A stretch of DNA of 64,000 nucleotides from Xestospongia bergquistia (Eukaryota > Porifera > Demospongiae > Haplosclerida > Petrosiidae). Shown here in pieces: positions 2,527 to 42,463 of the stretch (the first letter of the stretch is position 1; each line of letters starts with the position of its first letter). A program made the position numbers and the translations under genes. The notes below the pieces were generated by a model that made no database searches, was not told the DNA's origin, and was given only the letters and a program-made list of their open reading frames with translations. The stretch spans positions 6,391,001-6,455,000 of the forward strand of contig OZ014415.1 in NCBI GenBank assembly GCA_963965975.1, in the 5' to 3' direction.

Positions 2527-4600
2527 TCAAATGTTCATTTTATTTGTTGGTTTTGACTTCCTTTTAGTCTTTGTATTTGTTTGTGCGAAAATGTCAACTT
2601 GAGGGGGTATTCCAATTATGTATCCACCACTTGGACTATTTTTTACAATACGTTCTAACTTCCATAAGAATGTATCACCTTTCTGGATTAGATACATAAT
2701 CAAATGATGTTTATATAAAAAACAAACCTCTAGTTGATAAAAGTACGTTTTATCTCCTGCTGCTGCAGGCAACTCGAGTTTTTTACTTCTTTCTTCCTCA
2801 TCGCAAAGATGATTATTAAATATGCAGGTAGCATACATCTCTGTATCTGTCATGAAAGTGAGTGCATGTGATGTTTACAGAGAAACCTTACCATCACTTT
2901 TATTGTATGTTGCAGTTGCAAGGTTTTCTTTGTTAAAAGTGATTATTACTGCTTCACTGAAAATAATATATTGATAGTGATTGGTATATATAAATCAAAT
3001 TATACCCTTTCTTTAACAATGTTTTTTGATGTTGATCCTAAGGAAATAGTAATGTAAAGTAAGCCATGAGTAAAACACCTTTAAACTAATTTCCTTATTT
3101 GAATTGTAGTAATATTGCAATTATTATAATTAGACTATATTTAATAATGTACCTCTGATATACTTATTGTATATGTTTAATGTACCTTAATGTCTGAGTC
3201 ACTTGATGAAGGAGATGGCTACAGAATAAAAATAAGTCTTAATCAAATGAGAATCTGGGATGTCTATCAAGTCACCTTTGACTTCTTCTTATGACCCTTT
3301 TTGCTCTAAATTGTCAGAAATTTTATTAACAATTCATAAAACCTTACCTTTTGCTTTTTCTAAATTAGATAAAAAAGAAGTCAATGTAAATGTAATGAGT
3401 TAAAATACCTTAATTTTTAAGTCACGGGACTGAGGTGATTGCTTAATAGTGATAGCAGAAATGGTAATACAAAATATTAATTGTATAACATTTCATCTCA
3501 CTTTTGATGTCTTCCTTTTAACACTTGATTTATTCTATATTAACGGGAAAATTGTTAATAGGTGGCGATGAAGCGTTCTAAATTCACCTTTAGGCTTTCC
3601 TTTTCAACCTGATGATTGTCACAAAGCAAGTGTAAAAAAATAAAACATGATTTTTACATTTAATTAGACACAATAAACGTACCATGGAATCACTGCTAGA
3701 TGTGTCACTTGGTGTAAGAGGTGATGGAGATGAAGCTTTCCTGCTCTTGTACTTCTGGAGACATTAAGGCAAAATAGCATGTTTGACACTAGCTATTAAC
3801 CTTATTGTCTTTTCTCTTGACTTTCAACTTCTGAAACTTAGCCATGAAAATATGAAGATAGTTATTATTGAACATTTACCTTTTTACATCCTGACCCTTT
3901 TCCTTTCTACATGAACAGTTTGATAATAGCATAAATAATTAATTTAGCTAAATAATTACCCTCTTGTTATAGTGCTTAGCTTCAATTAAACATTTTGCCA
4001 GAATTTTGTCAATTTCATGTTCATGCCCTCTTAGAGTAGGACATTGGCTATATACCTATACAGTCAATAAAACTCAGCAACATGTAACATCTTGCCAACC
4101 CTGTCATGAATGTGTTTAAGCCGTGATGGCTTAATGTCTTTAAATGTACATTTCCCCCAAATTTCAGCTTCTACAGCTGACGTTTTAAGAATGTGCTGAT
4201 TGTGTACAAATTAAAGAGGTATTTTAGCTATTTTTATATTCTGTAATATTAAAGAAACTCACTCTAAATCGTTGTTTTGGTGGAGTGGATTTCCTCTCCT
4301 TAGTTAGATATTCTTCTGCTGTACATGTGTAATCAACTTGAACTGAAGCTATAGCTATTTAAAAATAGAATTAACATAAATGACAACCAAAACATTAAAC
4401 TCAAGTCCTGATCAGCTATATATAACTCATTGTATAGACTACATGATTAAAGTAATTGATTAAGTAGTAAAATTACCTGTGGAAACGTCTGTTTGAGTGT
4501 CAGGACCTCCAGTACTAGCTAGTACTGGAGGTCCTGTAGAAGTAGAAGGCTCATCAGCACTTATGTACTGGTACTGACCATCATGACCAGCATGACCAGT
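2527..4600 (-). CDS. Multi-exon gene of unknown function with a microexon-encoded Lys/Ser-rich linker
   Basis: Minus-strand exons, 5' to 3': about 4600-4477 (start not found), 4348-4263, 4195-4100, 4055-3960, 3906-3880, 3830-3801, 3754-3683, 3608-3588, 3534-3502, 3429-3409, 3359-3348, 3305-3276, 3218-3186, 3037-3006, 2956-2892, 2846-2728 and 2682-2527. All junction phases agree, which is strong support. The protein has a Ser/Thr/Pro-rich N-terminus, a middle alpha-helical part (IWGKCTFKDIKPSRLKHIHD, then HEHEIDKILAKCLIEAKHY), a linker built from ten phase-0 exons of 12 to 72 nt rich in Lys and Ser, and a C-terminal region (GDTFLWKLERIV, then SPSGGYIIGIPP) with a basic tail. The 45-nt intron 2727-2683 is itself open, so retention would add 15 residues. 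I do not recognise the family; the basic linker suggests nuclear or nucleic-acid binding, which is inference. Confidence 0.6.
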
Positions 4601-8400: not shown

Positions 8401-10187
8401 TGTAATAGAATATGATGATTTCATTTTTTTATCTATTAACTTTCTTATATCATCATCTTTACATCATACAAATGTTAAAAGTAACAATTAAGTTTAACTT
8501 CATGTACTGTCCATTCAAACACATGTATTATAACATGTATCATGTATTTGATTTTATCATGATGTTGAGTACAAATACATTATTATATATTAATACTGTT
8601 AAATCTTTGCTTGCATTAACATGTAAACAATCATGTCCAAATTATATAATTTCACAATGATTTAATTGGTATATATCTGTTATTGCTATGGGAGACTTAT
8701 AGTTGACATATCATATGTAACATACCAACCACAATGTTTTACTATATAGTTATTATATAACTATATAGTAAAACTAAGGTGATCTTGTTATGTACTACAC
8801 AGTATAGTCTTATTACTATTATATATGTTATACTAGTAGTACTACATTGTATACTGACATTAGTACTGTTGTGTTCTCTCGTATAGTCCTCAATGATGGT
8901 CAGTGGTCAGTAGGGTTTGTACTAAACTCTAATGATCTAACCTCAACTGATGACTACCAACGAAGAGTACTAAAACGACTCACAGAAGGAAGGAGAGAAT
9001 GGATAGAACAACGAGAGAAACAAAATGTCAAACAAGAAGACATTCAGTCTCTTCAAGATGAGTTAAGAGCGACTAGAGATAATTATCAACATCAGTTACA
9101 AGAGGCTCAACGTCAGTTACAAGAGTCTCAACATCAATTACAAGAGTCGCAACATCAGTTTCAAGAGTCTCAACTTCAGTTACAAGAGTCTCAACATCAG
9201 TTTCAAGAGTCTCAACATCAGTTACAAGAGTTTCAACATCAGTTTCAAGAGTTTCAACAGCAGTTACAACAGTCTCAAGATGAGATACAAGAGACAAGAC
9301 AAGCTAGAGATCAATATCAACAAAGTAATCTTAGTCTACTACAGCGACTTCAACAAACAGAACAAGCTCGACAAGATATTGAACAACAATTAGAACAGCT
9401 TCGTTCTCAACTGGATCAACCTCATTGGGTTGTGGGTAGAGAGGAGGTGATAATGACACAGGAGGTCTTAGGTAAAGGATCATATGGCAAAGTTAGAGTG
9501 GCAGTCTTCCGAGGTCTGAGAGTAGCTGCCAAGTCTCTTCATGGTATTATCATCTCAGACTATACCAGTGATCTTTTCTCCAGGGAAATGGACATTGCCT
9601 CTAGAGTACGTCATCCTAATCTTGTTCAATTTATTGGGGCTACTAGAGTGGGTACACCAATTATCCTTACAGAGATCATAACCACAAGTCTTTACAAAGA
9701 ACTCCAGAAGAAGGCCTTGACACAAGCTCAAATACTTGGTATTGGTTGTGATGTAGCTTTAGCTCTTAACTACCTCCATTTATGGAAACCAGACCCTATT
9801 ATCCATCGAGATATTAGTAGCCCTAATGTCCTATTAGAACCATCAGTAGATGATAGCTTTAAAGCTAAAGTAACTGATTATGGAGCAGCTAATCTTCAAC
9901 AACAAGCCAAGACAGATATGCCAGGAAACCCAGCCTATGCTTCCCCAGAGTCTCGTTACCCAGATGATCACAGTCCAGCAATGGATGTCTACAGCTACTC
10001 TGTACTATTGATGGAGATGATACTTCATTGTCCACCTGCTATGACAGTTCCAAAGAGAGAAGAACAAGCTAGTCATGTATCATGGCCTCCTATGTCCTCT
10101 CTCATCCAGAGGTGTCTCAACCGAGATCATCATTGTCGTCCAACTATGACCCAGATCTTAGATCAACTCAAACAACTAAACATTTAA
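5451..10187 (+). CDS. K1: Kelch, coiled-coil and TKL-like protein kinase (800 aa)
   Basis: Exons 5451-5508, 5819-6352, 6620-6783, 6863-7048, 7834-7993 and 8887-10187 splice in frame to 800 codons. The start is the ATG of MADLFKRLTGLGRTPE; the corresponding first exon is conserved in most copies. Residues 20-370 are a Kelch-type beta-propeller with repeated GG pairs and downstream W (LYLWGGGSDD, IYYFGGYCGHD, AIIFGG, LVMIGGLDD, LVVIGGG). Residues about 420-535 are a Gln-rich coiled coil of QLQESQH-like heptads. Residues about 550-795 are a kinase: glycine loop LGKGSYGKV, Lys in VAAKSLH, Glu in SREMDIA, HRDISSPNVLL, DYG in place of DFG, SPE, and DVYSYSVLLMEM. Lys of the usual HRDxK is absent, as in many TK/TKL kinases, but the other catalytic residues are present, so activity is likely. 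Exons and introns are nearly identical to K5, which indicates recent duplication or conversion. There is no signal peptide or TM segment, so it is probably cytosolic. Confidence 0.85.
8736..8773. repeat. Perfect palindrome in K1 intron 5
   Basis: The arms ttttactatatagttat and its reverse complement flank a very short centre. K5 has only the left arm at the matching place (about 34667), so the palindrome formed or was lost after the K1/K5 split. Confidence 0.6.
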
Positions 10188-10470: not shown

Positions 10471-10800
10471 TCTCAAGATGAGATACAAGAGACTGGAAAA
10501 GCTAAGGATCAATGTCTTCACAATAATCTTAGTCTTCTTTAGTGACTTGAACAAACAGCATGCTCAACAAGATAGAACAGTTTCATTCTCAATAGGATTT
10601 GGTGGTAGGTAGAGAGGAGGTGACCATGACACAGCAGACACAGGAACCTTGATTATGTAATAGGTCATTGTCTTCCAAGGTCTAGGTGTGGCTGCCAAGT
10701 CTCTCCGTGGTATCATTATCTCAGACTACAACAACTGATTAGAGAAATGGACATTGTTTCTACAGTTTGTCATCCTAATCTTATTCAATTTTTATTGGAG
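10471..10800 (+). pseudogene. Decayed kinase-exon relic of the K family
   Basis: The sequence follows the K-family coiled-coil and kinase exon from the region encoding SQDEIQETR through the VVGREEV-like linker, the glycine-loop area, AAKSL and the helix-C region to HPNLVQF. It carries stops, frameshifts and deletions and ends abruptly after the LIQF-like segment. A closely matching relic lies at 22575-22910. In both places the relic is followed by the same spacer and then by a Kelch gene with the same first exon (K2, K4). Confidence 0.85.
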
Positions 10801-11761
10801 TTATTAATATTACTAATAGTAGTAATATACATGCGTACTAGCTCATTCTCCATTGGTTATTTTCATAAGTATAAAACATCACTGACTATAGCAAACTAAT
10901 GTTTTAACCTTTGTCCCAAAAATAACCAGATCTTTTTTTAGTCATGCTGGGCCAATTTTACTGTGACAGATAACAGTGACAGTTATAATTTAGTCTATGA
11001 ATAATGAAATTAAGGAGGTGTGGTCATCCTATGACAATAGTAATCACATAATGTATTACATTGTAATAATTATTTTATGATAGTTATTTATATTTTAGAT
11101 TATTTGAAGTCGTCATTACATAATGTTTACTTTTATAAGGTGCTGTACAGCCTTTAAAAATGATATTAATATATTGAGGTTAGGTTATCTATAACAAATA
11201 CATGTATCATGTATCATGTAGTTATATTATAGAAGATAGCATAATCATCAAATACTTATGTTTATAGTGTGTTTTAGTGAGAACTAATTCTATGAATAAG
11301 GTATTGTCTAGATAGTAACCTTTAAAAAAAGGTCTTTATAATTTCACTCCAATGATTACATTGCACAGAGTAGTGTATTCTATTCATATTAATTGATAAC
11401 TCTAACAATTTAACAGTTAATGTTCATTTCAACTACAAGTAGTTTAAACACTTTAGCTTTAACTGCAAGACTTACCAATGAATATGACTACAGGGATATG
11501 CATATGACCTATATGGCTGTTTCTAATTTTAGTATGTTCATAGCTAAAAATAATTCTTATAGAAAGTCAACTAGTATGTAAGTACAAATGTTTTATAACT
11601 AAAGTTTAACAGTATGTTCCCTATAATCATTGCCTTCCAACATGATATGAATTGTGTATTATACTGTGTGGAAAATAAAACTAAAACATCAAAACATAAA
11701 AAATGAATTGTACTATTCTATAGTTCATACAAGTCTTATCAGTTCACTTGTCATTTAATGA

Positions 11762-12484: not shown

Positions 12485-15400
12485 ATGTCTGGTTTATTTA
12501 GAAGGCTAAGAGGTAGAGGTAGAAGTACTAAAATCCCATCAGGTAATGTTACTAGATATCATGTACTATCTTAATTAGTAGTAGCACAATATCTACACTT
12601 GTAGGTATTATGTAGTCTCACTAACTAGACCATCTTTCTCTACAATGAGTGTCTAACTAGTGAGACTAGTATAATGTATGGAGAAAATGAGAGTTACTTC
12701 ACAAGTTCAAGTATTCAATATTACTACTGGTAAATGGAACAATCAGTCTACCAGAGGTAATCCTCCACTAGGAGTGAGAGGATATTTTTGTACAATAGTT
12801 GAGGACAAAATTTATTATTTCGGTGGGTATTGTGGACATGACCACTGTTACCATAACAGTCTCAATGAGTTAAATATTTCTACCCTCACCTGGACCCAAC
12901 TACAACCTACTGATGACAACATTACAGTGATGAAGAGAGGCTTTGGTGGTATGATGTCAAGTGAACAAGTAGGACACCATTGTCTTTTATTTATTGGAGG
13001 TGGTGGATATCCACCCTCTATACAATTACCACAAGCTCAATATTATCAGTTACCCAGTGGTAGACTACGTACAAATGAACATAATCTGTATGACCTGACA
13101 ACAGGTAATAACATTAATACATTAATATCATATTATGTTATCAGATATTACTTATTACAATCAATGTTACTACATGTAATTATTATATGATTATAATAGT
13201 GAACATCAATAACTATAACTAGGAATATATGGATATATATCTTTCCATAAAAATATAATGTATAATATTCAGTCTCTGTTTTATTGACTGGATATGTTTT
13301 ATGTGGTCTCCTTTTAGGTCAATGGATCATACCTGAGATCATTGGACAGTGTATACCACCTAGTAGCAGCTTTGTTATGGAAAGTATTAATAACACGAGA
13401 GGAATCATTTTTGGTGGTTTTGCTGAAGGCACAACATCTAATACACTCTATATACTGGATATCATCAATCATATAGTGGTAAGTTAAATTATCATTCGTA
13501 CACTGACTGATAACATGTTATATAATGAGTGTTAGTTGAGTTCATTTGTCTATCTAGCACTGGCAGACTATAACTAAACCTGACCTAGTAGTACAATGGC
13601 CAGAGGAAAGGTGGAGTCATGCTGCCAGTATTATCGCTGAATCAATATCACCTATACTAGTAATGACAGGTGGACTGAACAATGATAAAAAAACACTAAA
13701 TGACTGTTGGATACTGGATATTAATAAGAAGTCATGGACAAAGGTATATGATTGATAATATACCATATTATCTCTTATTTATTATACGATGATAGTTACT
13801 AAGTTAGTACATGTAATTGTCCATATATTTAGAAGTATAATAAATCATATTCATTTACTACTAATATATTATAATATGTTGTTATCTTTATTATTATCAT
13901 AATTATTACCTTTGTACAAAATTATAGTCTACTTACATTAGAGATTATAAATTAACTAGATGATCTTAGTATTTGTATTTCAGAGTAATAGTTCAACAAT
14001 ATTGTGAATTAATTGTGCCTTTTTATCATAATTACTACAATGTTAGTTAATGGATTTTTAATTCCAAGTAGAAATTATTAATATATAGTGCTTATGATAA
14101 CAAGATATTTGTTTCATTTATTCCTCAACCATAAACTTTTATGGAGTTTTATCCATAATAAGTTTGTTTAATATTAGTAATAAATATATATCTTCACTGT
14201 ACTATAGTTAATCTATAGATATATCTCTACATACTACAGATTAATCTACCTGACTCTGTCACTAAGAGATGTGCACACTCTCTATCAACATTTATTATGG
14301 GACCACATTGTGTGTGGTTAATAGTTGTAGGAGGTTATCAATATTCTGATCATAGGATAGCTATCACAGACCCTAATATAACAACATTGGTAGAACTAGG
14401 TAAGTAAATCATTATACACATAATAATTGGTCTGTAGCAGCTACTTAGCCCATGTACTGTGTTTTTAATAGTATACTTTACAACTTTTCACATTTATACT
14501 CCATTGATAATGTTATAGTATTTAGACTAATTTCTTTTCTTTGCATCAGCTTATTGAAGTTAGTTCTTTATAATTTCTTGATTTCTTGCTGACTTCTTTT
14601 GTCTTCTAACCATTGCCTCATTGCTTCATATCATATAAAAATAGACCAGACCTCTTGAGAATAATTAATTACCTCTGAAGATTTTGATCACACACAATGT
14701 TGATCTTACTACTCATTTTATACTAGGAATGCATAGAAACACAGGGTTTGCCTCACATAGTAAGAGGTTCAGTCTCTTAGTCTGTATTACACTTTATTAA
14801 TTATATGAAATTCTAGTATACCTACCCTCTAACTTTGTCTTTGATCTCATTCACTTTTACAATACTTTAACTGTTTAGACATCTTGTGTGCATCCCTTTG
14901 CTCCTTTTAATTATTTAAATTTATATGCTTTTTCCTTTCTTCAAATTTATTACATCACTAAACATCGAGTAAACATTTTTTCTGTAGACATGCCTGCTTT
15001 TGCATACTTGTGGTTACGTGTTCCTGTAAAGGAGTTATCACACTCCTAAGCATGATGAAACCACACACTCATAGTTACACATATATAAAGTAAGATGAGA
15101 GTTTGCTGCTCTGTTTTGTTGCCTCATGCTAAGGCACTAAGAAATATGTCTTATCATATTATAGATATTTAATAGTATAAAATGTTGTGACAATTTCATT
15201 TGTATCATTTAAATTTCTTGCATAATCATCTTTATATCATGCAACTGTTATAACTAATTTAGTTTGTATATAACTGTTGTTGCTATGGGAGACTCTGTAG
15301 TTGACATATTATATGTAGCACACTGACAACAATGTTTTACTATATAGTTATAAATTAGATGACCTTGCTACATACTACATAATATAATCTTATTACTATC

Positions 15401-16758
15401 ATATATGTTATACTAGTAGTACTACATTGTATACTGACATTAGTATTGTTGTGTTCTCTCATATAGTCCTCAATGATTGTCAGTGGTCAGTAGGGTTTGT
15501 ACTAGACTCTAATGACCTGACCTCAACTGATGACTACCAACAAAGAGTACTAAAACGACTCATAGAAGGAAGGAGAGAATATCACATGGAACAAAAACAG
15601 AAAAAAGAAGACAAAGAGCTTCAATCTATCATTCGGTTCCTTCATTATGAATTAAGAGAGACTAGAAATCATCATCATCGACAACTACAGCAAACACAGC
15701 ACACTCAACAGCAGTTACAGGATTGTCAACAACAACTAAAACAGTGTCAAGATGAGATACAACAGACAAATGATCAATATCAACAAGAGTTACAACAGAA
15801 ACAACAATGGATACAAGAATTAGAGCACCAATTGCAACAGTCTCAAGATGAGATACAAGAGACAAGACAAACTAGAGATCAATATCAACAAAGTAATCTT
15901 AGTCTTCTACAACAACTTCAACAAACAGAACAAGCTCGACAAGATATTGAACAACAGTTAGAACAGCTTCGTTCTCAACAGGAACAACCTAATTGGGTTG
16001 TGGGTAGAGAGGAGGTGATAATGACACAGGAGGTCTTAGGTAATGGAGCATATGGTAAAGTTAACGTGGCTGTCTTTCGAGGTCTGAGAGTAGCTGCCAA
16101 GTCTCTTCATGGTATCATCATCTCAGACTATACTCGAGATCTCTTCTCCAGGGAAATGGAGATTGCTTCTAGAGTACGTCATCCTAATCTTGTCCAATTT
16201 ATTGGGGCTACCAGAGTGGGTACACCCATTATTCTCACTGAGATTATGGCCACAAGTCTTTACAATGAGCTCCAGAAGAAGGCCTTGACACAATCCCAAA
16301 TACTTGGTATTAGTTGTGATGTTGCTTCAGCGCTTAACTACCTCCATTTATGGAAACCAGAGCCTATTATTCATCGAGATATTAGTAGCCCTAATGTCCT
16401 GTTAGAACCATCAGTAGGTGATATCTTTAAAGCTAAAATAGCTGATTATGGAGCAGCTAACCTTCAACAACATGCCAGGACAGATATGCCAGGAAACCCA
16501 GCCTATGCTTCCCCAGAGTCTCGCTATCCAAATGATCACAGTCCAGCAATGGATGTGTACAGCTACTCTGTCCTCCTGATGGAGATGATTCTTTGTCGTC
16601 CACCTGATATGACTGTTGCAAAGAGAGAAGAGCAAGCTAGTCATGTATCATGGCCTCCTATGTCCTCTCTCATCCAGAGGTGTCTCAACCGAGATCATCA
16701 TTGTCGTCCAACTATGACCCAGATCTTAGATCAACTCAAAGAACTAAATGTAAAGTGA
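12485..16758 (+). CDS. K2: Kelch, coiled-coil and TKL-like kinase, with the start of exon 2 deleted
   Basis: Exon 1 (12485-12542, MSGLFRRLRGRGRSTKIPS) is intact. The 3' part of intron 1, its acceptor and the first roughly 40 codons of exon 2 are missing: intron sequence (ataatgtatgga) runs straight into exon-2 sequence at about 12680. In the exon-2 frame the codon at 12672-12674 is a stop and no AG acceptor follows it, so exon 1 cannot splice in normally. A new ATG at 12678 opens the frame. From there the exons are 12678-13104, 13318-13478, 13558-13743, 14240-14399 and 15467-16758, which give 741 aa with all later phases intact. The kinase keeps LGNGAYGKV, AAKSLH, HRDISSPNVLL, ADYGAANL and SPES. 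It may make an N-terminally shortened propeller or be a young pseudogene. Confidence 0.75.
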
Positions 16759-19314: not shown

Positions 19315-22300
19315 ATGGCTACTAACCAAGATAAAGTCCCATCAGGTAATGTTACTAGATATCATGTACTACTTTAATTAGTAGTAATACAATATCTACA
19401 CTTATAGGTATTATGTAGTCTCACTAACTAGACCATCTTTCTCTACAGTGAGTGTCTAACTAGTGAGACTAGTATAATGTATGGACTACATGTATCATAA
19501 TATATAGTAGAAGATGAGGGCTAGGTTTGTGAAGTATATGTCAAGTATATAATTAGTATAGCCTTTGTACAAGTCTTGTAGTAGATGTGATGACATACTG
19601 TAGGTATATTACCTTATACTGTAACCTGATCTCAAGGTATTATTCTCTATAGGACAATACAAACTAGATGGAAGAAATTGTCATCACACTCAAGTGATAG
19701 GAGATAACCTGTACCTGTGGGGTGGGGAGTCAGATGACTTACCTCATGTACATAGTAGTGAGGAGAAAAGGAGAGTAACTTCACATATCCAAATATATAA
19801 TATTACTACTGGTAAATGGAACAATCAGTCTACCAGAGGTAATCTTCCACTAGGTGTGGGAGGCTGTCTATGCACATCAGCCAATGACAAAATTTATTAT
19901 TTTGGTGGATATTGTGGACATGACAGTTGTTTCCATAACAGTCTCCATGAATTTAATATTTCTACTTTCACCTGGACCCAACTACAACCTACTGATGACA
20001 GCATATGTGTCATGAGAAGAGCTAGTGGTTGTATGATGTCAAGTGAACAAGCAGGACATCATTATCTTTTACTTATTGGAGGTGCTGGACCCCCACCCTC
20101 TAAACAATTACCACAAGCTTGTTATCATCAGTTAACTTTTGGTGGTGTATCTACCAATGAACATAACATATATGACCTGACAACAGGTAATAACATTAAT
20201 ATATCATATTATACTATCAGATATCACTTATTACAGTCAATGTTACTACATGTAATTATTATATGATATAATAGTATCATCAATAAATTTAAACTAGGAA
20301 TATATTGAATATATTTCCTACCATTAAAGATTAGTATGTGTGTTGTGGTCAGTAATAATAATGGTCTCTTTATACATTAAAGTTTACTAGATGGCTCTTT
20401 ATTGATTAGATGTCTTTTGTTTGTTCTCCTTTTAGGTCAATGGATCATACCTGACATCACTGGACAGTGTATGCCACCTAACTCTAGCTTTGTTATGGAA
20501 AGTATTAGTAATACAAGAGCAATCATCTTCGGTGGGTATGTTAAAGACACAGTATCTAATACACTCTATATACTGGATATCATCAACCATACAGTGGTAA
20601 GTTATATTATCATTCATACATTGACTGATAACATGTTATATAATGAGTGTTAGTTGAGTTCATTTGTCTATCTAGCACTGGCAGACTATAGCTAAACCTG
20701 ATCAAGTAGTACAATGGCCAGAGAAAAGATATGATCATGCTGCCAGTATTATCATTGGATCAATATCACCTATACTAGTGGTAATAGGTGGGCTGGATTA
20801 TAATAAAAAAACAATAAATGACTGCTGGTTACTAGATGTTAAAATCAATTCATGGGCAAAGGTATATCATTACTGTCTCTTTCTTCCAAGTAGAAATAAT
20901 GAAGTTGAATAAGTAGTACTTGTTAAGTTAATGATGTCAATACATTAGTTACAATTAATTGTCAATACAATCTAACAGTTACTACAAACAAAGTTGTATC
21001 AGATTATGACTATTGTACCTGGGACCTGGGATCTTTACTATATATCTTCACCATAGTATAATTTATCTATACATTTATATCTCTACATATTACAGATTAA
21101 TCTACCTGACTCTGTCACTAAGAGATGTGCCCACTCTCTATCAACATTTATTATGGGACCACATTGTGTGTGGTTAATAGTTGTTGGAGGTCATGTAGAT
21201 TATGTTGGCACACCTGTTACGGACTTCAATTTAACAATGTTAATAGAGCTAGGCAAGTTGGGGATTATGTATACAGTAATTAATATTATGTAGTGTTATG
21301 TGATAATTATAACTCGTTAAGACTTATAAGGTTTTACTCTTATACATCACTATTTTTATTGTATGTAACTATTATTAGTGACAAGCTTCATGTACATTAT
21401 ATAGACAACTATCATAATATACCATAATGTATACTTGTATTATGAGTAACTTGTTATATACATATGTTTTACTAGAAATACTGATATTATAGTACTGTTG
21501 TGTTCTCTCATACAGTTCTCAATGATGGTCAATGGTCAGCAGGGTTTGTACTAGACTCTAATGACTTGACTTCAACTGATGACTACCAACAAAGAGTACT
21601 AAAACGACTTACAGAAGGAAGGAGAGGATGGATAGAAGAATATTACAGACAACTATAGAAAACACAGCAAGCCCTAAAAGACATTGAACAACTGCAACAA
21701 CAGCTACAGGTCTCTCAAAAACAGTTACAGGAGTCTCAACAACAGTCTGAACAACACCTACAAAAATGTTAGCACACAATTCACACCCAACATCAAGAGC
21801 AAGGATGTAGGTTCCATTCTAATAGTTTTAATCACATTTGATACTAGCTATAGCTTGAGCACATGTGTATTTTGAGTAAAACATTTGTTTATAACTCCAT
21901 AATTTCTTTTCTATAGATAATACTGAGTTGACCACATCCAAACAATATAAAGAATATTCTGTAAAGGGAAGTAAGTACATTAAACTACTACATTAAATGT
22001 AATTATTAGATTTGAAACTTTAGTCTATAGTGTCTTAATTGAATTCTCATTCCAGTAATACCAGTATGCAGTATTTATTGTATTCTCTATTATAGGAAAT
22101 GATATTAACAAAGTACTCAATAAAAAATCTGACAAGAGACATGTTGTGGAACTCTTAGCTCAAAATGCACATGATTATAAAAAGCTAGCCCTTGCACTTG
22201 ATGTTGATGATGGATTTGTGGAAGGATTAAAGAGTAGTGATGATGACATTGTAAATTTAGACAAAATTATAAAACGATGGATAAACACACGTTGTTCTCC

Positions 22301-22433
22301 TGTCACTTGGAAAGTTATCATAGAATCTGTGGAAAGTGTCATTTTTGGTAAGAATTTAGACCTTGGAGATAAGATAAGGAATTGGCTGAGAGAAGATGAA
22401 CATTTTGCTTATTACATGGAGAAAGATAACTAA
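19315..22433 (+). CDS. K3: Kelch, coiled-coil and Death-domain protein, interrupted by one TAG
   Basis: Exons 19315-19345, 19653-20186, 20436-20596, 20676-20861, 21096-21252, 21516-21767, 21917-21970 and 22096-22433 close in frame over 571 codons. Exon 1 is shorter than in the other copies (MATNQDKVPS). The Kelch part follows the usual exon plan. Intron 5 begins with GC (ctag|gcaagt) where the other copies have GT. The last K-type exon covers the conserved QWSAGFVLDSNDLTSTDDY block and a short Gln-rich coil. A TAG at 21656-21658 interrupts it where other copies have CAG. Two extra exons then encode a Death domain at about residues 465-560 (VELLAQNAHDYKKLALAL, KRWINTRCSPVTWKVIIES). There is no kinase. 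It is either a recent pseudogene or a polymorphic nonsense allele; the undamaged Death-domain exons favour recent damage. The donor at 21768 (GTTAGC) is weak. Confidence 0.7.
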
Positions 22434-22574
22434 CTAATTGTTTGAAACCTTAACACTATATATCTTACATTATGTTTTAAGACACTATTATGATCTGTAG
22501 TGAAATTTTTCTAATGTTGCCAAAAAAGATTTTTAAACTTTACATTTTTGACTTCTTGACCACTTTATAAGTAA

Positions 22575-22910
22575 TAACAGTCTCAAGATGAGATATAAGA
22601 GACTGGAAAAGCTAAAGGTCAATATCTTCACAATAATCTTAGTCTTCTTTAGTGACTTCAACAAACAGCATGCTCAACAAGATAGAACAGTTTCATTCTC
22701 AATAGGATTTGGTGGTGGGTAGAAAGGAGGTGACCATGACACAGGTACATTAATTATGTAATAGGTCATATGATAAAGTGTCTTCCAAGGTCTAGGTGTA
22801 GCTGCCAAGTCTCTCCGTGGCATCATTATATCAGACTACGACAACTGAACAGAGAAATGGACATCGTTTCTGTCGTCCTAATCTTATTCAATTTTTATTG
22901 GAGTTACTAA
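22575..22910 (+). pseudogene. Second decayed kinase-exon relic of the K family
   Basis: This matches the relic at 10471-10800 almost throughout, with the same premature stops (for example tcttctttagtgactt), and so descends from the same damaged copy. It begins within the coiled-coil region and ends after the helix-C region. It cannot encode a kinase. Confidence 0.85.
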
Positions 22911-26800: not shown

Positions 26801-29542
26801 AATTAATTACCTCTGAAAATTTTGATCACACACAATGTTGACCTTACTACTTATTTTTTGCTTTCTGTTCTCTGAATAACAAATGTTGTATATACTAGGA
26901 ATACCTAGAAACACAGGGTTTGCCTCACATAGTGAAAGATTCAATCTCTTAGTCTGGAAAAATAGTATTACACATTATCATTTGTAGCATAATTCTGTAT
27001 ACCTTATAACTTTGTGTATGATCTCATTCACTTTCACAATACTTTAGACACCTTGTATGCATCCTTCTGCTCTTTTAAGTGTCTTAAATGTGTATGCTTT
27101 TTCATTTCTTCAAGTTTATTACATCACTAAACATTGAGTAAATGTTTTCTCTGTAGAGATGACTGCTTTTGCGCATCTGTGGTTACTAGGGTTGTGTCAG
27201 GCACTTTTGGGCTTAAGCACAGTTTTTGAAGTGCTTCAAAGCTCTTTGTCAATTTAAGCACAAGTGCTTGTGCTCAAACACAAGTCTTAATTGTCTGTGC
27301 TTGTGTTTAAGTCTTTAAGTCCAGTGATGAAGAAAAAAAGGAGATGAGACTCATGCTCAAACAAAAAGTAGAAACTTTGACTAGAAAAGGTTTTCAAAAT
27401 ATCAAGAATAGCTGAAATTGTACTTGGTATCCCTGCTTTATCTGCTGCCATTGAGAGACTCTTCAGTATTGCTGGAAAGATATATTGCCAAGATATCGTT
27501 ATTGACACAAAATCTGAACAATCAATGTTTATTAATTAGATCTAATTAAAATAATGAAATAACTACATGTATTATAACTGTTGCTAGTTTAGATGATTAG
27601 AATAAAAGTGCTTTAAAGTTAAGTACTCTAACAAAGGGCTTGTGCTTGTGCTTAAGCACATGTGGAAATGTTAGTACTTGGTGCTTGACGTAATTTGAAA
27701 GTGCTTGTCCTTGTACTTAAGGACTTTTCCAAAGGGCTTGACACAACCCTGCTGGTTACGTGTTCCAGTAAACCAATTATTGCATTCTTAAGCATGACAA
27801 AACCACACACACATAATCATCTTTATATCATGTAATTATTATAACTGATTAAGTAACCTCCATGTCAGTTTTCACATTGATTTATTTTGTATATAACTGT
27901 TGTTGCTATGGGAGACTCTATAATTGACAAATCGTATGTAACATACTGACAACATGCAATGTTTTACTATTATAGATATATAAAAGGTGACATATATAAC
28001 CATCATATATGTTATACTAGTAGTACTACATTGTATACTGACATTAGTACTGTTCTGTTCTCTCATATAGTCCTCAATGATGGTCAATGGTCAGTAGGGT
28101 TTGTACTAGACTCTAATGACCTGACCTCAAATGATGATGACTACCAACAAAGAGTACTAAAACGACTTACAGAAGGAAGGAGAGAATGTCACATAGAACA
28201 AAGACAGAAACTAAATATAAAACAAGAAGACAAAGATCTTCAATCTATCATTCAGTCTCTTCATGACGAGTTAAGAGAGACTAGAAATCATCATCATCGA
28301 CAACTGCAGCAAACACAGCAAGCTCAACAGAAAATACAGGATTATCAACAACAGTTACAACAGTCTCAACATGAGGTACAAGAGACAAATGATCAATATC
28401 AACAACAACTACAACAGCAACAACAACGGATACAAAAGTTAGAACATCAGCTACAAGAGTCTCAACATCAGTTACAAGACTCTGAACAGCAGTTACAAGA
28501 GTCTCAACAGCAGTTACAACAGTCTCAAGATGAGATACAAGAGAAAAAAGATCAATATCAACGACAGCTACAACAGCAACAACAATGGATACAAGAGTTA
28601 GAACATCAGTTACAACAGTCTCAAGATGAGATACAAGAGACAAGACATGCTAGAGATCAATATCAACAAAGTAATCTTAGTCTTCTACAGCGACTTCAAC
28701 AAACAGAACAAGCTCGACAAGATATTGAACAACAATTAGAACAGCTTTGTTCTCAACAGGATCAACCTCATTGGGTTGTGGGTAGAGAGGAGGTGATAAT
28801 GACACAGGAGGTCTTAGGTAAAGGATCATATGGCAAAGTTAAAGTGGCTGTATTCCGAGGTCTAAGAGTAGCTGCCAAGTCTCTTCACAATATCATCATC
28901 TCAGAGTACACCCAAGATCACTTTTTCAGGGAAATGGACATCGCTTCTAGAGTACGTCATCCTAATCTTGTCCAATTTATTGGGGCTACTACAGTGGGTA
29001 CACCTATCATTCTCATGGAGATCATGGCCACAAGTCTTTATAATGAGCTTCAAAAGAAGGCTTTCACACAATCCCAAATACTCGGTATCAGTTGCAATGT
29101 AGCTTCAGCTCTTAACTACCTCCATTTATGGAAACCAGACCCTATTATCCATCGAGATATAAGTAGCCCAAATATCCTGTTAGAACCATCAGTAGGTGAT
29201 AGCTTTAAAGCTAAAGTAACTGATTATGGAGCAGCTAATCTTCAACAACAAGCCAAGACAAATATGCCAGGAAATCCATCTTATGCTTCCCCAGAGTCTC
29301 ACTATCCGGATGATCACAGTCCAGCAATGGATGTCTATAGCTACTCTGTACTATTGATGGAGATGATCCTTCATTGTCCACCTGCTATGACAGTTCCTAA
29401 GAGAGAAGAACAAGCTAATCATGTATCATGGCCTCCTATGTCCTCTCTTATTCAGAGGTGTCTCAACCGAGATCGTCATTGTCGTCCAACTATGAGCCAG
29501 ATCTTAGATCAACTCAAACAAGAAAAACATGTAATAAACTAG
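23813..29542 (+). CDS. K4: Kelch, coiled-coil and TKL-like protein kinase (856 aa)
   Basis: Exons 23813-23870, 24188-24721, 25628-25788, 25868-26053, 26383-26542 and 28071-29542 give 856 codons plus stop in frame. The first exon is nearly identical to that of K2 (MSGLFRRLRGRGRSTK). This copy has the longest coiled coil, with many Gln-rich heptads (QLQESQQ, QLQQSQDEIQE). The kinase keeps LGKGSYGKV, AAKSLH, FREMDIA, HRDISSPNILL, DYG, SPES and DVYSYSVLLME, so it is probably active. Intron 2 (24722-25627) is enlarged by a block that also occurs in intron 5 and by a MITE. Intron 5 (26543-28070) carries a hAT remnant. The open frame extends upstream of exon 6 to 27959, but that part is intron. Confidence 0.85.
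24984..25225. mobile_element. Second copy of the TA-flanked MITE, in K4 intron 2
   Basis: The terminal inverted repeats start cactgtaaaaatgattggtt and end with the complement (cagtg), flanked by TA at 24982-24983 and 25226-25227. The ends and the ggttatacaggtt motif match the element at 17151-17400; the interiors have diverged. The same intronic sequence occurs without the element near 26960 (aaaaatagtattacac), an empty site with a single TA. Confidence 0.85.
27187..27751 (+). mobile_element. hAT transposon remnant in K4 intron 5
   Basis: The inverted ends are tagggttgtgtcaggc and, reversed, cagggttgtgtcaagc. An 8-bp target duplication with one mismatch flanks it (gtggttac at 27179-27186, ctggttac at 27752-27759). 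K2 intron 5 has the unoccupied sequence gtggttacgtgttcc near 15010. The interior on the plus strand reads IPALSAAIERLFSIAGK, then CQDIVIDTKSEQSMFIN and a stop, which matches the C-terminal dimerisation region of hAT transposases. Most of the transposase is missing, so the element is non-autonomous. Confidence 0.85.
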
Positions 29543-34300: not shown

Positions 34301-36024
34301 TCATGTCATAGTATTTCTATATCAATCTTTAAGAATGTAATAGAATATGATGATTTCGTTTTTTTATCTATTAACTTTCTTATATCACCATCTTTACATC
34401 ATGTAAATGTTAAAAGTAACAATTAAGTTTAACTTCATGTACTGTCCATTCAAAGACATGTATTATAACACAGCAATTTGATTTTATCATGATGTTGAGT
34501 ACAAATACATTATTATATATTAATACTGTTAAATCTTTGCTTGCATTAACATGTAAACAATCATGTCCAAATTATATAATTTCACAATGATTTAATTGGT
34601 ATATATCTGTTGTTGCTATGGGAGACTTATAGTTGGCATATTATATGTAACATACCAACCACAATGTTTTACTATATAGTTATTATATAACAGGTGACCT
34701 TGTTATGTACTACATAGTATAGTCTTATTACTATTATATATGTTATACTAGTAGTACTACATTGTATACTGACATTAGTACTGTTGTGTTCTATCATATA
34801 GTCCTCAATGATGGTCAATGGTCAGTAGGGTTTATACTAAACTCTAATGATCTAACCTCAACTGATGACTACCAACGAAGAGTACTAAAACGACTCACAG
34901 AAGGAAGGAGAGAATGGATAGAACAAGGAGAGAAACAGAATGTCAAACAAGAAGACAACGAGCTTCAATCAATCATTCGGTCTCTTCAAGATGAGTTAAG
35001 AGTGACTAGAGATAATTATCAACAACAACTACAGCAAACACAGCAAGCTCAACATCAGTTACAAGAGTTTCAAGATGAGATACAAGAGTTTCAACATCAA
35101 TTACAACAATCTCAAGATGAGATACAAGAGACAAGACATGCTAGAGATCAATATCAACAAAGTAATCTTAGTCTACTACAACGACTTCAACAAACAGAAC
35201 AAGCTCGACAAGATATTGAACAACAATTAGAACAGCTTTGTTCTCAACAGGATCAACCTCATTGGGTTGTGGGTAGAGAGGAGGTGATAATGACACAGGA
35301 AGTCTTAGGTAATGGGGCATATGGTAAAGTTAAAGTGGCTGTCTTTCGAGGTCTGAGAGTAGCTGCCAAGACTCTTCATGGTATTATCATCTCAGACTAT
35401 ACCACGGATCTGTTCTCCAGAGAAATGGACATTGCTTCTAGAGTACGTCATCCTAATCTTGTCCAATTTATTGGGGCTACTAGAGTGGGTACACCTATCA
35501 TTCTTACAGAGATCATGACCACAAGTCTTTACAATGAGCTCCAGAAGAAGGCCTTGACACAATCCCAAATACTGGGTATAAGTTGTGATGTAGCTTCAGC
35601 TCTTAACTACCTCCATTTATGGAAGCCAGACCCTATTATCCATCGAGATATTAGTAGCCCTAATATCCTGTTAGAACCATCAGTAGGTGATAACTTTAAA
35701 GCTAAAGTAACTGATTATGGAGCAGCTAACCTTCAACAGCATACCAGGACAGATATGCCAGGAAACCCAGCCTATGCTTCCCCAGAGTCTCGCTATCCAG
35801 ATGATCACACTCCAGCAATGGATGTCTACAGCTACTCTGTACTATTGATGGAGATGATTCTTCATCGTCCACCTGCTATGACAGTTCAAAAGAGAGAAGA
35901 ACAAGCTAGTCATATATCATGGCCTCCTATGTCCTCTTTCATCCAGAGGTGTCTCAACCGAGATCGTCATCGTCGTCCAACTATGAGCCAGATCTTAGAT
36001 CAACTCAAACAACTAAAGATATAA
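31390..36024 (+). CDS. K5: Kelch, coiled-coil and TKL-like protein kinase (773 aa)
   Basis: Exons 31390-31447, 31760-32293, 32565-32725, 32805-32990, 33771-33930 and 34802-36024 close in frame to 773 residues. The N-terminus is MANFFRRLKDRGRTPEAPS. The Kelch part and all introns are nearly identical to K1. The coiled coil is shorter than in K1 or K4. The kinase motifs are LGNGAYGKV, AAKTLH, SREMDIA, HRDISSPNILL, DYG, SPES and DVYSYSVLLMEM. GQRMPH in exon 3 replaces the Cys found in the other copies (GQCMP). It is followed at 36435 by a decayed 5' end of vasa, which shows that K5 was duplicated together with the K6/vasa boundary. Confidence 0.85.
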
Positions 36025-38936: not shown

Positions 38937-41900
38937 ATGGCTGATTTTTTAAAAAGAATAACAGGTATAGGTAGAACTCCTGAAATCCCATCAGGTAATG
39001 TTACTAGATATCATGTACTACCTTAATTAGTAGTAGTACAATATCTACACTTGTAGATATTATGTAGTCTCACTAACTAGAACATCTTTCTTTACAGCAA
39101 CTTTCTGACTGGTTAGACTAGTATAATGTATGGACTACATGTATCGTAATATATAGTAGAAGATGAGGGTTAGGTTTGTGAAGTATATATCAAGTATATA
39201 ATTAGTATAGCCTTTGTACAAGTTTTGTAGTAGATGTAATGACATATATTACCTTATAATGTAACCTGATCTCAAGATATGGTACATATCATTCTCTATA
39301 GGACAATACAAACTTGATGTAAGAGTCTTTCATCACACTCAAGTGATTGGTGATGCTCTGTACTTGTGGGGTGGGGAGTCAGATGATTTACCTGATGTAC
39401 ATAACAATGAGGATAAAAAGAGAGTAACTTCACATGTCCAAATATTTGATATTACTACTGGTAAATGGAACAATCAGTCTACCAGTGGTAATCCTCCACT
39501 AGGAGTGGATGGCTATTTCTGTACAACAGTTGATGACAAAATTTATTATTTTGGTGGATATTGTGGACATGATGAATGCTTCCATAACAGTCTTCATGAG
39601 TTAAATATTTCTACCCTCACCTGGACCCAACTACAACCTACTGATGACAGGATTGTAGTGATGAGGAGATCTAGTGGTGGTACGATATCGAGTAAGGAAG
39701 CAGGACAACATTGTCTTTTGTTTATTGGAGGTTTTGGATCTCCACCCTCTACACACCTACCACAAGCTCAATATTATCATTTACCCAATGGTAGAGTATC
39801 TACTAATGAACAAAATATATATGACCTGACAACAGGTAAGAACATTAATATATCATATTATATTATCAGATATCACTTATTACAGTCAATGTTACTACAT
39901 GTAATTATTATGTCATTTCATGCATTAAGGTACAATGCATTGTGTCACAATTTTTATAAATAGTTCACTGTTACCAGATATTGACTAGATGTGTTTTGTT
40001 TGTTCTATTTTTAGGTCAATGGATCAAACCTGAAATCACTGGACAGTGTATGCCGCCTAATGAGAATTTTGTTATGGAAGCAGTAAACAATACAAGAGCA
40101 ATCATCTTTGGTGGTTTTGCTAAAGGCACACCATCTAATACACTCTATATACTGGATATCATCAACCATACAGTGGTAAGTTATGTTATAATTCATACAC
40201 TGACTGATAACATGTTATATAATGAGTGTTACTTGAGTTCATTTGTCTATCTAGCACTGGCAGACTATAGCTAAACCTGACCTAGTAGTACAGTGGCCAG
40301 AGGAAAGACAAGTTCATGCTGCCAGTATTATCACTGAATTAATATCACCTATACTAGTAATGATAGGTGGAGTGGATAAGAGAAACAAAACAATAAATGA
40401 CTGTTGGATACTGGATATTAATGAGAAGTCATGGACAAAGGTATATCATGTATTGTCATTATATTCAGTTTATGATATAGCATATATCTTATTTAGATGT
40501 TTTTCAGATTAATAGTTTGAGAATTAAAACAACAATTGAGACTAAATATATAAAACACAATAAAACTCAATTTAATAATTTTTAATTTTAAGTAGAACCA
40601 CAAAATTCATGTAATTTTACTATCTAATATTATAGTGTAAGAAATAGATAATAATTGTTAAAGTGGGTAAACAATGACTTGACCTTATCAAATTAACAAA
40701 TATCATGTTTAATATAAGTACTACCTACACTACTTGGGATCATTTACTATATATCCTCAATGTTTGATCAATTGATGTCTCTATATACTACAGATTAATC
40801 TACCTGACTCTTTTACTGAGAGAGAAGGCCACTCTCTATCAACATTTATCATGGGACCACATTGTGTGTGGTTAATAGTTGTAGGAGGTAAAGTAAGGAT
40901 CAATAAAGTAGCTGACTCCAATATAACAATGTTGATAGAATTAAGTAAGTAAATCATTTCACATACAAAACAAATGTCACATCAACATTTATGAATATAG
41001 TTTAAGGTGGCAATTAGAACTCATTAAGACATGTTTTCTCACCATGTTCATAGGATATACCGGTATACTACAGCATGTACTTCTATTATAAGTAATTTGT
41101 TATATGTTATTGCTATGGGAGACTTATAGTTGGCATATTATACTGACCACAATGTTTTACTAGTTATATAACAGGTGACCTTGTTATGTACTACATAGCA
41201 TAGTCTTATTACTATCATATATGTTATACTAATAGTACTACATTGTATACTGACATTAGTACTGTTGTGTTCTATCATATAGTCCTCAATGATGGCCAAT
41301 GGTCAGTAGGGTTTGTACTAGACTCTAATGATCTAACCTCAACTGATGACTACCAACGAAGAGTACAAAGACAACTCACAGAAGGAAGAAGAGAATGGAT
41401 CAAACAAGGAGTGAAACAAAATGTAAAGCATGAAGACAAGGAGCTTCAGTCTATCATTCAGTCTCTTCAAGATGAGTTAAGAGTGACTAGAGATCATTAT
41501 CAACAACAACTACAGCAAACACAGCAAGCTCAACATCAGTTACAACAGTCTCAAGATGAGATACAAGAGACAAGACAAGCTAGAGATCAATATCAACAAA
41601 GTAGTCTTAGTCTACTACAACGACTTCAACAAACAGAACAAGCTCGACAAGATATTGAACAACAGTTAGAACAGCTTCGTTCTCAACAAGAACAACCTCA
41701 TTGGGTTGTGGGTAGAGAGGAGGTGATAATGACACAGGAAGTCTTAGGTAATGGGGCATATGGTAAAGTTAAAGTGGCTGTCTTTCGAGGTCTGAGAGTA
41801 GCTGCCAAGACTCTTCATGGCATCATTATTTCTGACTACACCCGAGATCTCTTCTCCAGGGAAATGGACATTGCATCTAGAGTACGTCATCCCAATCTTG

Positions 41901-42463
41901 TGCAATTTATTGGGGCTACAAGAGTAGGTACACCCATTATTCTTACAGAGATCATGGCCACAAGTCTTTATAATGAGCTTCAAAAGAAGGCTTTGACACA
42001 ATCCCAAATACTTTTTATAAGTTGTGATGTAGCTTCAGCTCTTAACTACCTCCATTTATGGAAACCAGACCCTATTATCCATCGAGATATTAGTAGCCCT
42101 AATGTCCTGTTAGAACCATCAGTAAGTGATAGTTTTAAAGCTAAAGTAACTGATTATGGAGCAGCTAACCTTCAACAGCATACCAGGACAGATATGCCAG
42201 GAAACCCAGCCTATGCTTCCCCAGAGTCTCGCTATCCAGATGATCACAGTCCAGCAATGGATGTCTACAGCTACTCTGTACTATTGATGGAGATGATACT
42301 TCATCGTCCACCTGCTATGACAGTTCCTAAGAGAGAAGAACAAGCTAGTCTTATATCATGGCCTCCTATGTCCTCTCTCATTCAGAGGTGTCTCAACCGA
42401 GATCGTCATCATCGTCCAACTATGATCCAGATCTTAGATCAACTCAAACAACTAAAAATATAA
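38937..42463 (+). CDS. K6: Kelch, coiled-coil and TKL-like protein kinase (756 aa)
   Basis: Exons 38937-38994, 39302-39835, 40015-40175, 40255-40440, 40794-40944 and 41283-42463 give 756 codons plus stop. The N-terminus is MADFLKRITGIGRTPEIPS, closest to K1. Exon 5 ends with A before the donor (ttaa|gtaagt), where other copies end in G, so the junction residue becomes Ile. The coiled coil is the shortest of the kinase copies. The kinase has LGNGAYGKV, AAKTLH, HRDISSPNVLL, DYG and SPES; ILFISCDV has Phe where the others have Gly. Intron 1 lacks the hairpin found in four other copies. The gene ends about 400 bp before vasa, on the same strand. Confidence 0.85.

Follow-up and report, generated by a model that had tools for sequence, protein, structure and literature searches.

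The window analysed here, the whole stretch of 64,000 nucleotides at C5:6391001-6455000 of a 146-Mb genome, contains a gene, K3, that occupies window positions 19315-22433 in an eight-exon model fitting its paralogues. K3 belongs to a tandem array of 11 Kelch loci, 10 of which have kinases, and it is the only one of the 11 without a kinase match. Five further genes in the window (K1, K2, K4, K5, and K6) share the Kelch exons of K3, and all of them have an open coil-kinase exon. The features of these genes, in window positions, are the following:

8889-10172, + strand: open coil-kinase exon of K1, which starts at the shared LNDGQW and reaches the end of the kinase
10471-10879, + strand: another decayed copy of coil-kinase sequence, located behind K1 and sharing 89% identity with the remnant behind K3
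15469-16758, + strand: open coil-kinase exon of K2, by coil-kinase alignment
19315-19345, + strand: exon 1 of K3 with the start codon, open into exon 2, GT donor
19653-20186, + strand: exon 2 of K3, Kelch repeats, matching Pfam Kelch families (best 1.2e-18)
20436-20596, + strand: exon 3 of K3, Kelch, by open frame and paralogue comparison
20676-20861, + strand: exon 4 of K3, Kelch, by Kelch match, paralogue comparison, and open frame
21096-21252, + strand: exon 5 of K3, Kelch, ending in phase 1, with a GC donor (GCAAGT) that the paralogues share
21516-21767, + strand: exon 6 of K3, the first part of the coil-kinase (K) exon that K3 shares with its neighbours, with a Q-rich coil, by genome matches and alignment to kinase-type coils
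21656-21658, + strand: TAG, in frame, within the coil; the five paralogues in the window stay open here
21917-21970, + strand: putative exon 7 of K3, 54 nt, phase 1-1, between tttctatag and GTAAGT sites
22096-22433, + strand: exon 8 of K3, Death domain (111 aa from 22098) and stop, by Death-family relatives
22567-22909, + strand: remnant of a decayed coil-kinase exon, downstream of the Death exon, with 68-71% DNA identity to the array's intact exons
28073-29542, + strand: open coil-kinase exon of K4, Pkinase match at 2.5e-35, HRD and DYG motifs
34804-36009, + strand: open coil-kinase exon of K5, by coil-kinase alignment
41285-42448, + strand: open coil-kinase exon of K6, by coil-kinase alignment

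A sequence-only reading of this DNA had held that K3 shares the Kelch exons and the start of the K exon with its neighbours, and both claims were borne out. The Kelch exons are open, follow the same splice pattern as those of the neighbours, and are 68-75% identical to them (exons 2, 4, and 5), and homology to the coil-kinase exons of the neighbours runs from 21516. Exon 2 by itself is 71-75% identical to its paralogues, with the K2 comparison covering 141 of 177 aa only. Exons 1-5 of K3 have zero stops and the usual splice sites apart from one GC donor, that of exon 5, which was deduced from the phase and is common to the paralogues. Short first exons similar to exon 1 precede exon 2 in several paralogues. 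When exons 2-5 and the start of exon 6 were joined, they matched PF24681 of Pfam at 9.1e-39, and several Kelch families scored above the cut-off, which identifies a Kelch propeller. No signal-peptide-like stretch was noticed by eye in exon 1, and the protein is therefore assumed to be cytosolic. The opening 36 codons that Kelch exon 2 has in the neighbours were not found in K2 (window 12573-12680), whose 5' end may be truncated.

The kinase of the neighbours is TKL-like. Besides its Pkinase match, it is closest among solved structures to CTR1 and TAK1, which account for all nine rows at E <= 1e-20 and which we take to belong to the TKL class. The kinases of K1, K2, K4, K5, and K6 have DYG in place of the usual DFG, and their HRD motif is intact.

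What does the last exon of K3 encode? Exon 8 alone matched no Pfam family, even at E 10, and its PDB search did not bring up a Death domain. The structure prediction that had been proposed as a check (AlphaFold, single sequence) was all helical and, with a pLDDT of 47.6, uninformative. Exon 8 is recognizable as a Death domain only through its family. Its closest relatives among the matches listed have E values of 8.7e-60 and 6.3e-57, which is beyond chance. A profile, called DD2, was made from exon 8 and 19 relatives out of 29 other loci (best 150 of 666 candidates), with ten near-copies, partial or stop-bearing relatives left aside. FADD was at the top when this profile was compared with the PDB (10 rows, E 0.0028-0.026), followed by THOC1 (three rows, E 0.059-0.9), whose matched part is presumably its Death domain. 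FADD and THOC1 made up 13 of the 20 rows, and the remaining seven were unrelated with E values of 1 and above. Pfam Death (PF00531) matched 6 of the 20 DD2 members at E <= 1 (best 4.9e-6; exon 8 itself was not among them), and 18 other Pfam families matched one or two members each at E 0.03-0.2. Further evidence comes from hhalign, in which the DD2 profile aligned over 77 columns (93.8%, E 1.8e-7) with seven exons that match Pfam Death, namely those of six of the eight loci from a genome search with Pfam Death and the DD1 exon of a locus called L069. On these comparisons exon 8 is accepted as a predicted, divergent Death domain of the DD2 kind. It is not a copy of DD1, the usual domain of the Kelch-Death genes described below, as its relatives are the DD2 family, and neither DD1 nor ZU5 gave a match behind K3. 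Pfam Death has at least 150 matches above cut-off in the whole genome (best 150 of 983 candidates), many of them clustered.

The Kelch, K, and Death exons of K3 lie on one strand in consistent phases. Exons 7 and 8 had been read together as a Death domain with matching splice phases; both are indeed in phase 1 and exon 8 belongs to a Death family, but exon 7, although its splice signals are good, is without a relative. The stretch that holds it (window 21659-22095) matched only itself in the genome, and with no second match a known module in its 18 residues is unsupported.

The Death exon sits in an unusual place. K3 aligns to the kinase-type coil-kinase exons from 21518 to ~21763, in pieces owing to the repetitive coil. 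The alignment is interrupted there and comes back at 22567-22909, and the Death exon is located within the ~0.8 kb that splits the coil-kinase exon. The returning segment consists of coil and the start of a kinase with stops and frameshifts, and the remaining kinase is absent from its three-frame translation. In other words, K3 does not show a clean exchange of last exons, since a kinase remnant persists behind the Death segment. The similar decayed copy behind K1 has no Death exon beside it among the matches listed. The preferred explanation of this layout is that K3 originated as a Kelch-coil-kinase gene, one of 11 tandem copies; a segment with a phase-1 Death exon would have entered its coil-kinase exon, and the kinase half would have decayed behind the Death exon afterwards.

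The Death exon together with the next 387 bp (window 22096-22820) recurs on the other strand at C5:6681932-6682655, where it is the closest relative of exon 8 and the last exon found behind a Kelch locus. The Kelch part of that locus is placed as follows:

C5:6693951-6692361: open frames of the Kelch exons, lying between these positions
C5:6691351-6691028: K exon

Behind this K exon are DD1 (Pfam 3.5e-6) and ZU5 (Pfam 1.1e-5), and the Kelch, K, DD1, ZU5, and DD2 exons are a candidate for a single gene. Within the locus, a 360-bp unit is repeated ten times with 99% matches (L069 3308-6896; C5:6687407-6690995). Each unit holds one short coiled-coil exon, and the length of the coil may vary with exon number. 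The block shared with K3 stops within the kinase remnant at C5:6681932-6682655 and continues at K3, which weakly suggests that it was copied from a K3-like locus. The Death exon is 89.2% identical in the two places and the flank 96%. The non-coding flank with its kinase remnant is thus closer than the Death exon preceding it, as if conversion tracts were patchy. A second DD2 copy at C5:6680426-6680971 (L042) is frameshifted near its start and has decayed coil-kinase directly behind it. At another locus, L041 (C3:1827252-1830584), a DD2 exon is 81% identical to that of K3. A COR-B domain ahead of it was considered and, at E 0.15, fell below cut-off; the position of this copy behind a weakly COR-B-like exon indicates that the Death exon is found in other contexts too.

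Can K3 produce a protein that includes the Death domain? The translation of exon 6 runs LNDGQWSAGF...EEYYRQL and then meets the TAG at 21656-21658, which the earlier reading overlooked. The splice form with exons 6, 7, and 8 therefore yields 403 residues, with the stop as codon 404 of 571, ahead of the Death domain. The claim that K3 ends in a Death domain thus applies to the anatomy of the gene but fails for this protein, whose nonsense codon lies upstream. There are ways around the TAG. The end of exon 5 and the starts of exons 6, 7, and 8 are all in phase 1, so that skipping of exon 6 keeps a Kelch-Death frame open (486 aa with exon 7, 468 aa without it). The phase-1 sites among the GT and GC sites listed in exon 6 are 21768, behind the TAG, and 21528, a weak donor near the exon start whose use would give an open Kelch-Death frame of 490 aa. 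A Kelch-Death protein from K3 would require exon 6 skipping, the weak donor, or a TAG-free allele, and the chances that one is made appear to be about even.

A separate gene that starts behind K3 and includes 22096-22433 would be another way for the Death exon to be translated, and the nearest relatives of the exon, lying at the ends of other genes, do place it in several contexts. However, neither exon 7 nor the parts of exon 6 past the TAG and of exon 8 ahead of the domain contain an in-frame ATG, and the sole Met of exon 8 lies near the exon end. Exon 8 also starts in phase 1 and so needs an upstream coding exon. A standalone Death gene, with its start codon absent from the exons read, is very improbable. 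Barring an unseen first exon, the Death domain is translated only within a Kelch protein that avoids the TAG, or never.

The second of these outcomes is a serious contender. If K3 is dead or truncated, its protein stops at the TAG, after the Kelch part and ~47 residues from exon 6, while the Death exon is carried along untranslated as a leftover of a segmental copy. The in-frame TAG and the decayed kinase behind the Death exon are consistent with this, and so are two features of sequence change. First, K3 is the longest branch among the seven Kelch rows compared. Second, the private changes of the Death exon (8 nonsynonymous, 4 synonymous) are indistinguishable from the neutral ratio of 3.2:1, and one of them, P11S, replaces a nearly invariant proline. 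The dN/dS of the Death exon relative to the copy at C5:6681932-6682655 is 0.30. Its open frame was rejected as proof of selection because 8:4 fits neutrality and only ~4% of random changes would be stops. Against the loss of K3, its Kelch exons retain their frame, their splice sites, and a neighbour-like dN/dS (0.49-0.63 relative to six relatives, where the range among the relatives is 0.44-0.99, with gapped parts of exons 5 and 6 omitted), and their private changes number 28 nonsynonymous and 18 synonymous. The Death exon is free of stops and frameshifts and has a good acceptor in the matching phase, and exon 6 skipping restores an open frame. A dead or truncated K3 falls only slightly short of an even chance. 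This reading concerns K3 only, and not the pattern of the family to which K3 belongs.

That pattern emerged from a search for other Kelch-Death genes, which the sequence-only reading had named as a check and which succeeded outside K3. The start of the K exon has at least 57 matches in the genome, a lower bound because the K exon at C5:6691351 was missed by the search. A DD1 match (78 in the genome) lies within 4 kb downstream on the same strand of 24 of the 57 K exons. Chance does not explain these neighbours, as 1000 random placements gave a mean of 0.18 and a maximum of 2. A TKL-like kinase lies within 4 kb downstream on the same strand of 21 K exons, where the kinase set comprised 31 rows chosen from the best 150, those with at least 69% identity on C1 and C5. 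DD2 follows a single K exon, that of K3 (among the best 12 of 150 DD2 matches), and 11 have neither output. The two outputs are mutually exclusive, in that no K exon had both DD1 and a kinase among the matches listed. ZU5 is found within 3 kb behind DD1 at 8 of the 24 Kelch-DD1 loci. UPA was considered for the stretch behind ZU5, but the stretch typed had no Pfam match save one to another family at E 0.082. The counts contain some imperfect loci: a single kinase at 2-3 kb is counted for two of the 21 K exons with kinases, and stops occur in three of the kinases and in two DD1 exons of the 24 Death loci. Kelch exon 5 was present within 1.5 kb upstream of the K exon at 28 of 30 loci checked; the exceptions are K4 (L034), whose exon 5 is further off within the window, and L035, which is without it. 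For 54 of the 78 DD1 matches no K exon match lies within 4 kb upstream. DD1 therefore has further locations, or it neighbours Kelch genes with an undetected K exon, like the one at C5:6691351.

How did one module come to have two outputs? Evidence comes from a pairwise comparison of ten loci on C1 (seven Death and three kinase, at 5.21-5.30 and 6.00-6.13 Mb). In all 21 Death/kinase pairs, the K-exon match (82-94% identical) breaks off in the range 1624-1816 (locus bases), and beyond that breakpoint none of the 21 shows a match of at least 100 bp. Matching resumes further along in all 21 Death/Death pairs, and each of the three kinase/kinase pairs continues to base 3093 or beyond. The usual end of homology, at ~1780-1816, corresponds to the 3' boundary of the K exon. 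Two loci, L029 (1624) and L024 (1730), stop earlier against all partners, Death/Death pairs included. The pair L024/L036 was accordingly rejected as the cleanest swap, as L024 stops at base 1730 against Death loci too. Kinase and Death loci are also intermingled in a tree built from a short alignment of the K exon together with Kelch exons 4-5 (30 loci, up to 453 columns). The tree has seven changes between kinase and Death when kinase and Death rows alone are counted, and 15 of its 27 inner branches are open. Its starred branches alone force four changes (kinase versus all others) or five (Death versus all others), with K3 and three loci that lack both outputs placed among the others in both counts. 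Gene conversion among copies could look like such swapping, and conversion between neighbours may play a part.

In its full form, the conversion model states that the mix of outputs arose from conversion of Kelch exons between two old families, Kelch-kinase and Kelch-Death-ZU5, and not from an exchange of effector ends. The copies are in tandem, the 3' flank of K3 is closer than its Death exon to the distant copy (96% versus 89%), a patchiness expected of conversion, and kinase-type and Death-type coils differ on C5. However, homology between Death and kinase loci on C1 spans introns and stops near the 3' end of the K exon, and the Death exon of K3 is physically inside a kinase exon. These observations make conversion the rather unlikely route, while exchange of the effector end is preferred. 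Either route leads to one Kelch module with two outputs. The earlier proposal of one sensor scaffold wired to two outputs thus holds at the level of the family, through genes outside the window, whereas the word sensor goes beyond the exons themselves.

According to the exchange model, the Kelch propeller and the start of the coil exon would have been reused across the genome as an N-terminal module, and on more than one occasion they would have been linked to either a TKL-like kinase or a Death domain, the latter with a detected ZU5 in a third of cases. The cytosolic propeller would probably bind a ligand or a partner, the coil would probably oligomerise the protein, and the resulting proximity would probably activate the kinase or nucleate a Death-domain assembly. 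These steps of sensing, oligomerisation, and signalling are drawn from the known roles of the domains. It is likely that the anatomy of the K3 locus and the family pattern, apart from the question of what K3 produces, are as this model describes. A broader picture is more tentative and somewhat less probable than its opposite. It is that an early-branching animal has lineage-specific cytosolic Kelch sensors whose ends are swapped by recombination at the 3' end of a shared exon, so that near-identical neighbours report via a kinase or via Death(-ZU5). K3 would then be caught mid-swap, with a new Death exon inside a decaying kinase exon and symmetric phase-1 exons that let the broken coil be skipped.

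The modules recall several known systems. The RIPK and IRAK-Pelle families have a TKL kinase and a Death domain in one polypeptide, the same two modules as here. Unlike in those families, the modules are alternatives in the Kelch loci, none of the 57 having both among the matches listed; at K3 the kinase accompanying the Death exon is a broken remnant. Kelch repeats are not known from the RIPK and IRAK-Pelle families, whereas Kelch is the N-terminal module here. UNC5 netrin receptors, PIDD, and ankyrins are ZU5-Death proteins, and Death and ZU5 exons are likewise adjacent at the eight Kelch-DD1 loci with ZU5. The order differs, as the Death domain of UNC5 is C-terminal to ZU5 and the order here is Kelch propeller, coil, Death, and then ZU5. 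K3 stands outside these Kelch-DD1(-ZU5) genes because its Death exon is of the DD2 kind. The Kelch-repeat adaptors KLHDC2 and KLHL20 (PF24681) have a Kelch propeller like the joined K3 exons, and families of this type are not known to have a Death, ZU5, or kinase partner. No animal Kelch-Death or Kelch-TKL gene family was described in the titles and abstract openings of the literature searched. NLRs, among them sponge NLRs with DEATH or CARD domains (PMC12909245), have exchangeable effector ends, and they too combine a conserved sensor-like module with alternative death-fold ends. Unlike in the NLRs, Kelch serves here as the constant module, and a kinase is one of the outputs; the word Kelch has no occurrence in the main text of that paper.

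Alternative signalling ends on one constant module are thus already known from NLR-type receptors. If the exchange model is true, the same logic would operate with Kelch propellers and would choose between a kinase and a Death domain, at a breakpoint that is still readable between loci 82-94% identical. The exchange of effectors would then be datable and its effect on signalling directly testable. It would also bring a group not found described in the literature searched into the genome's large Death-domain repertoire.
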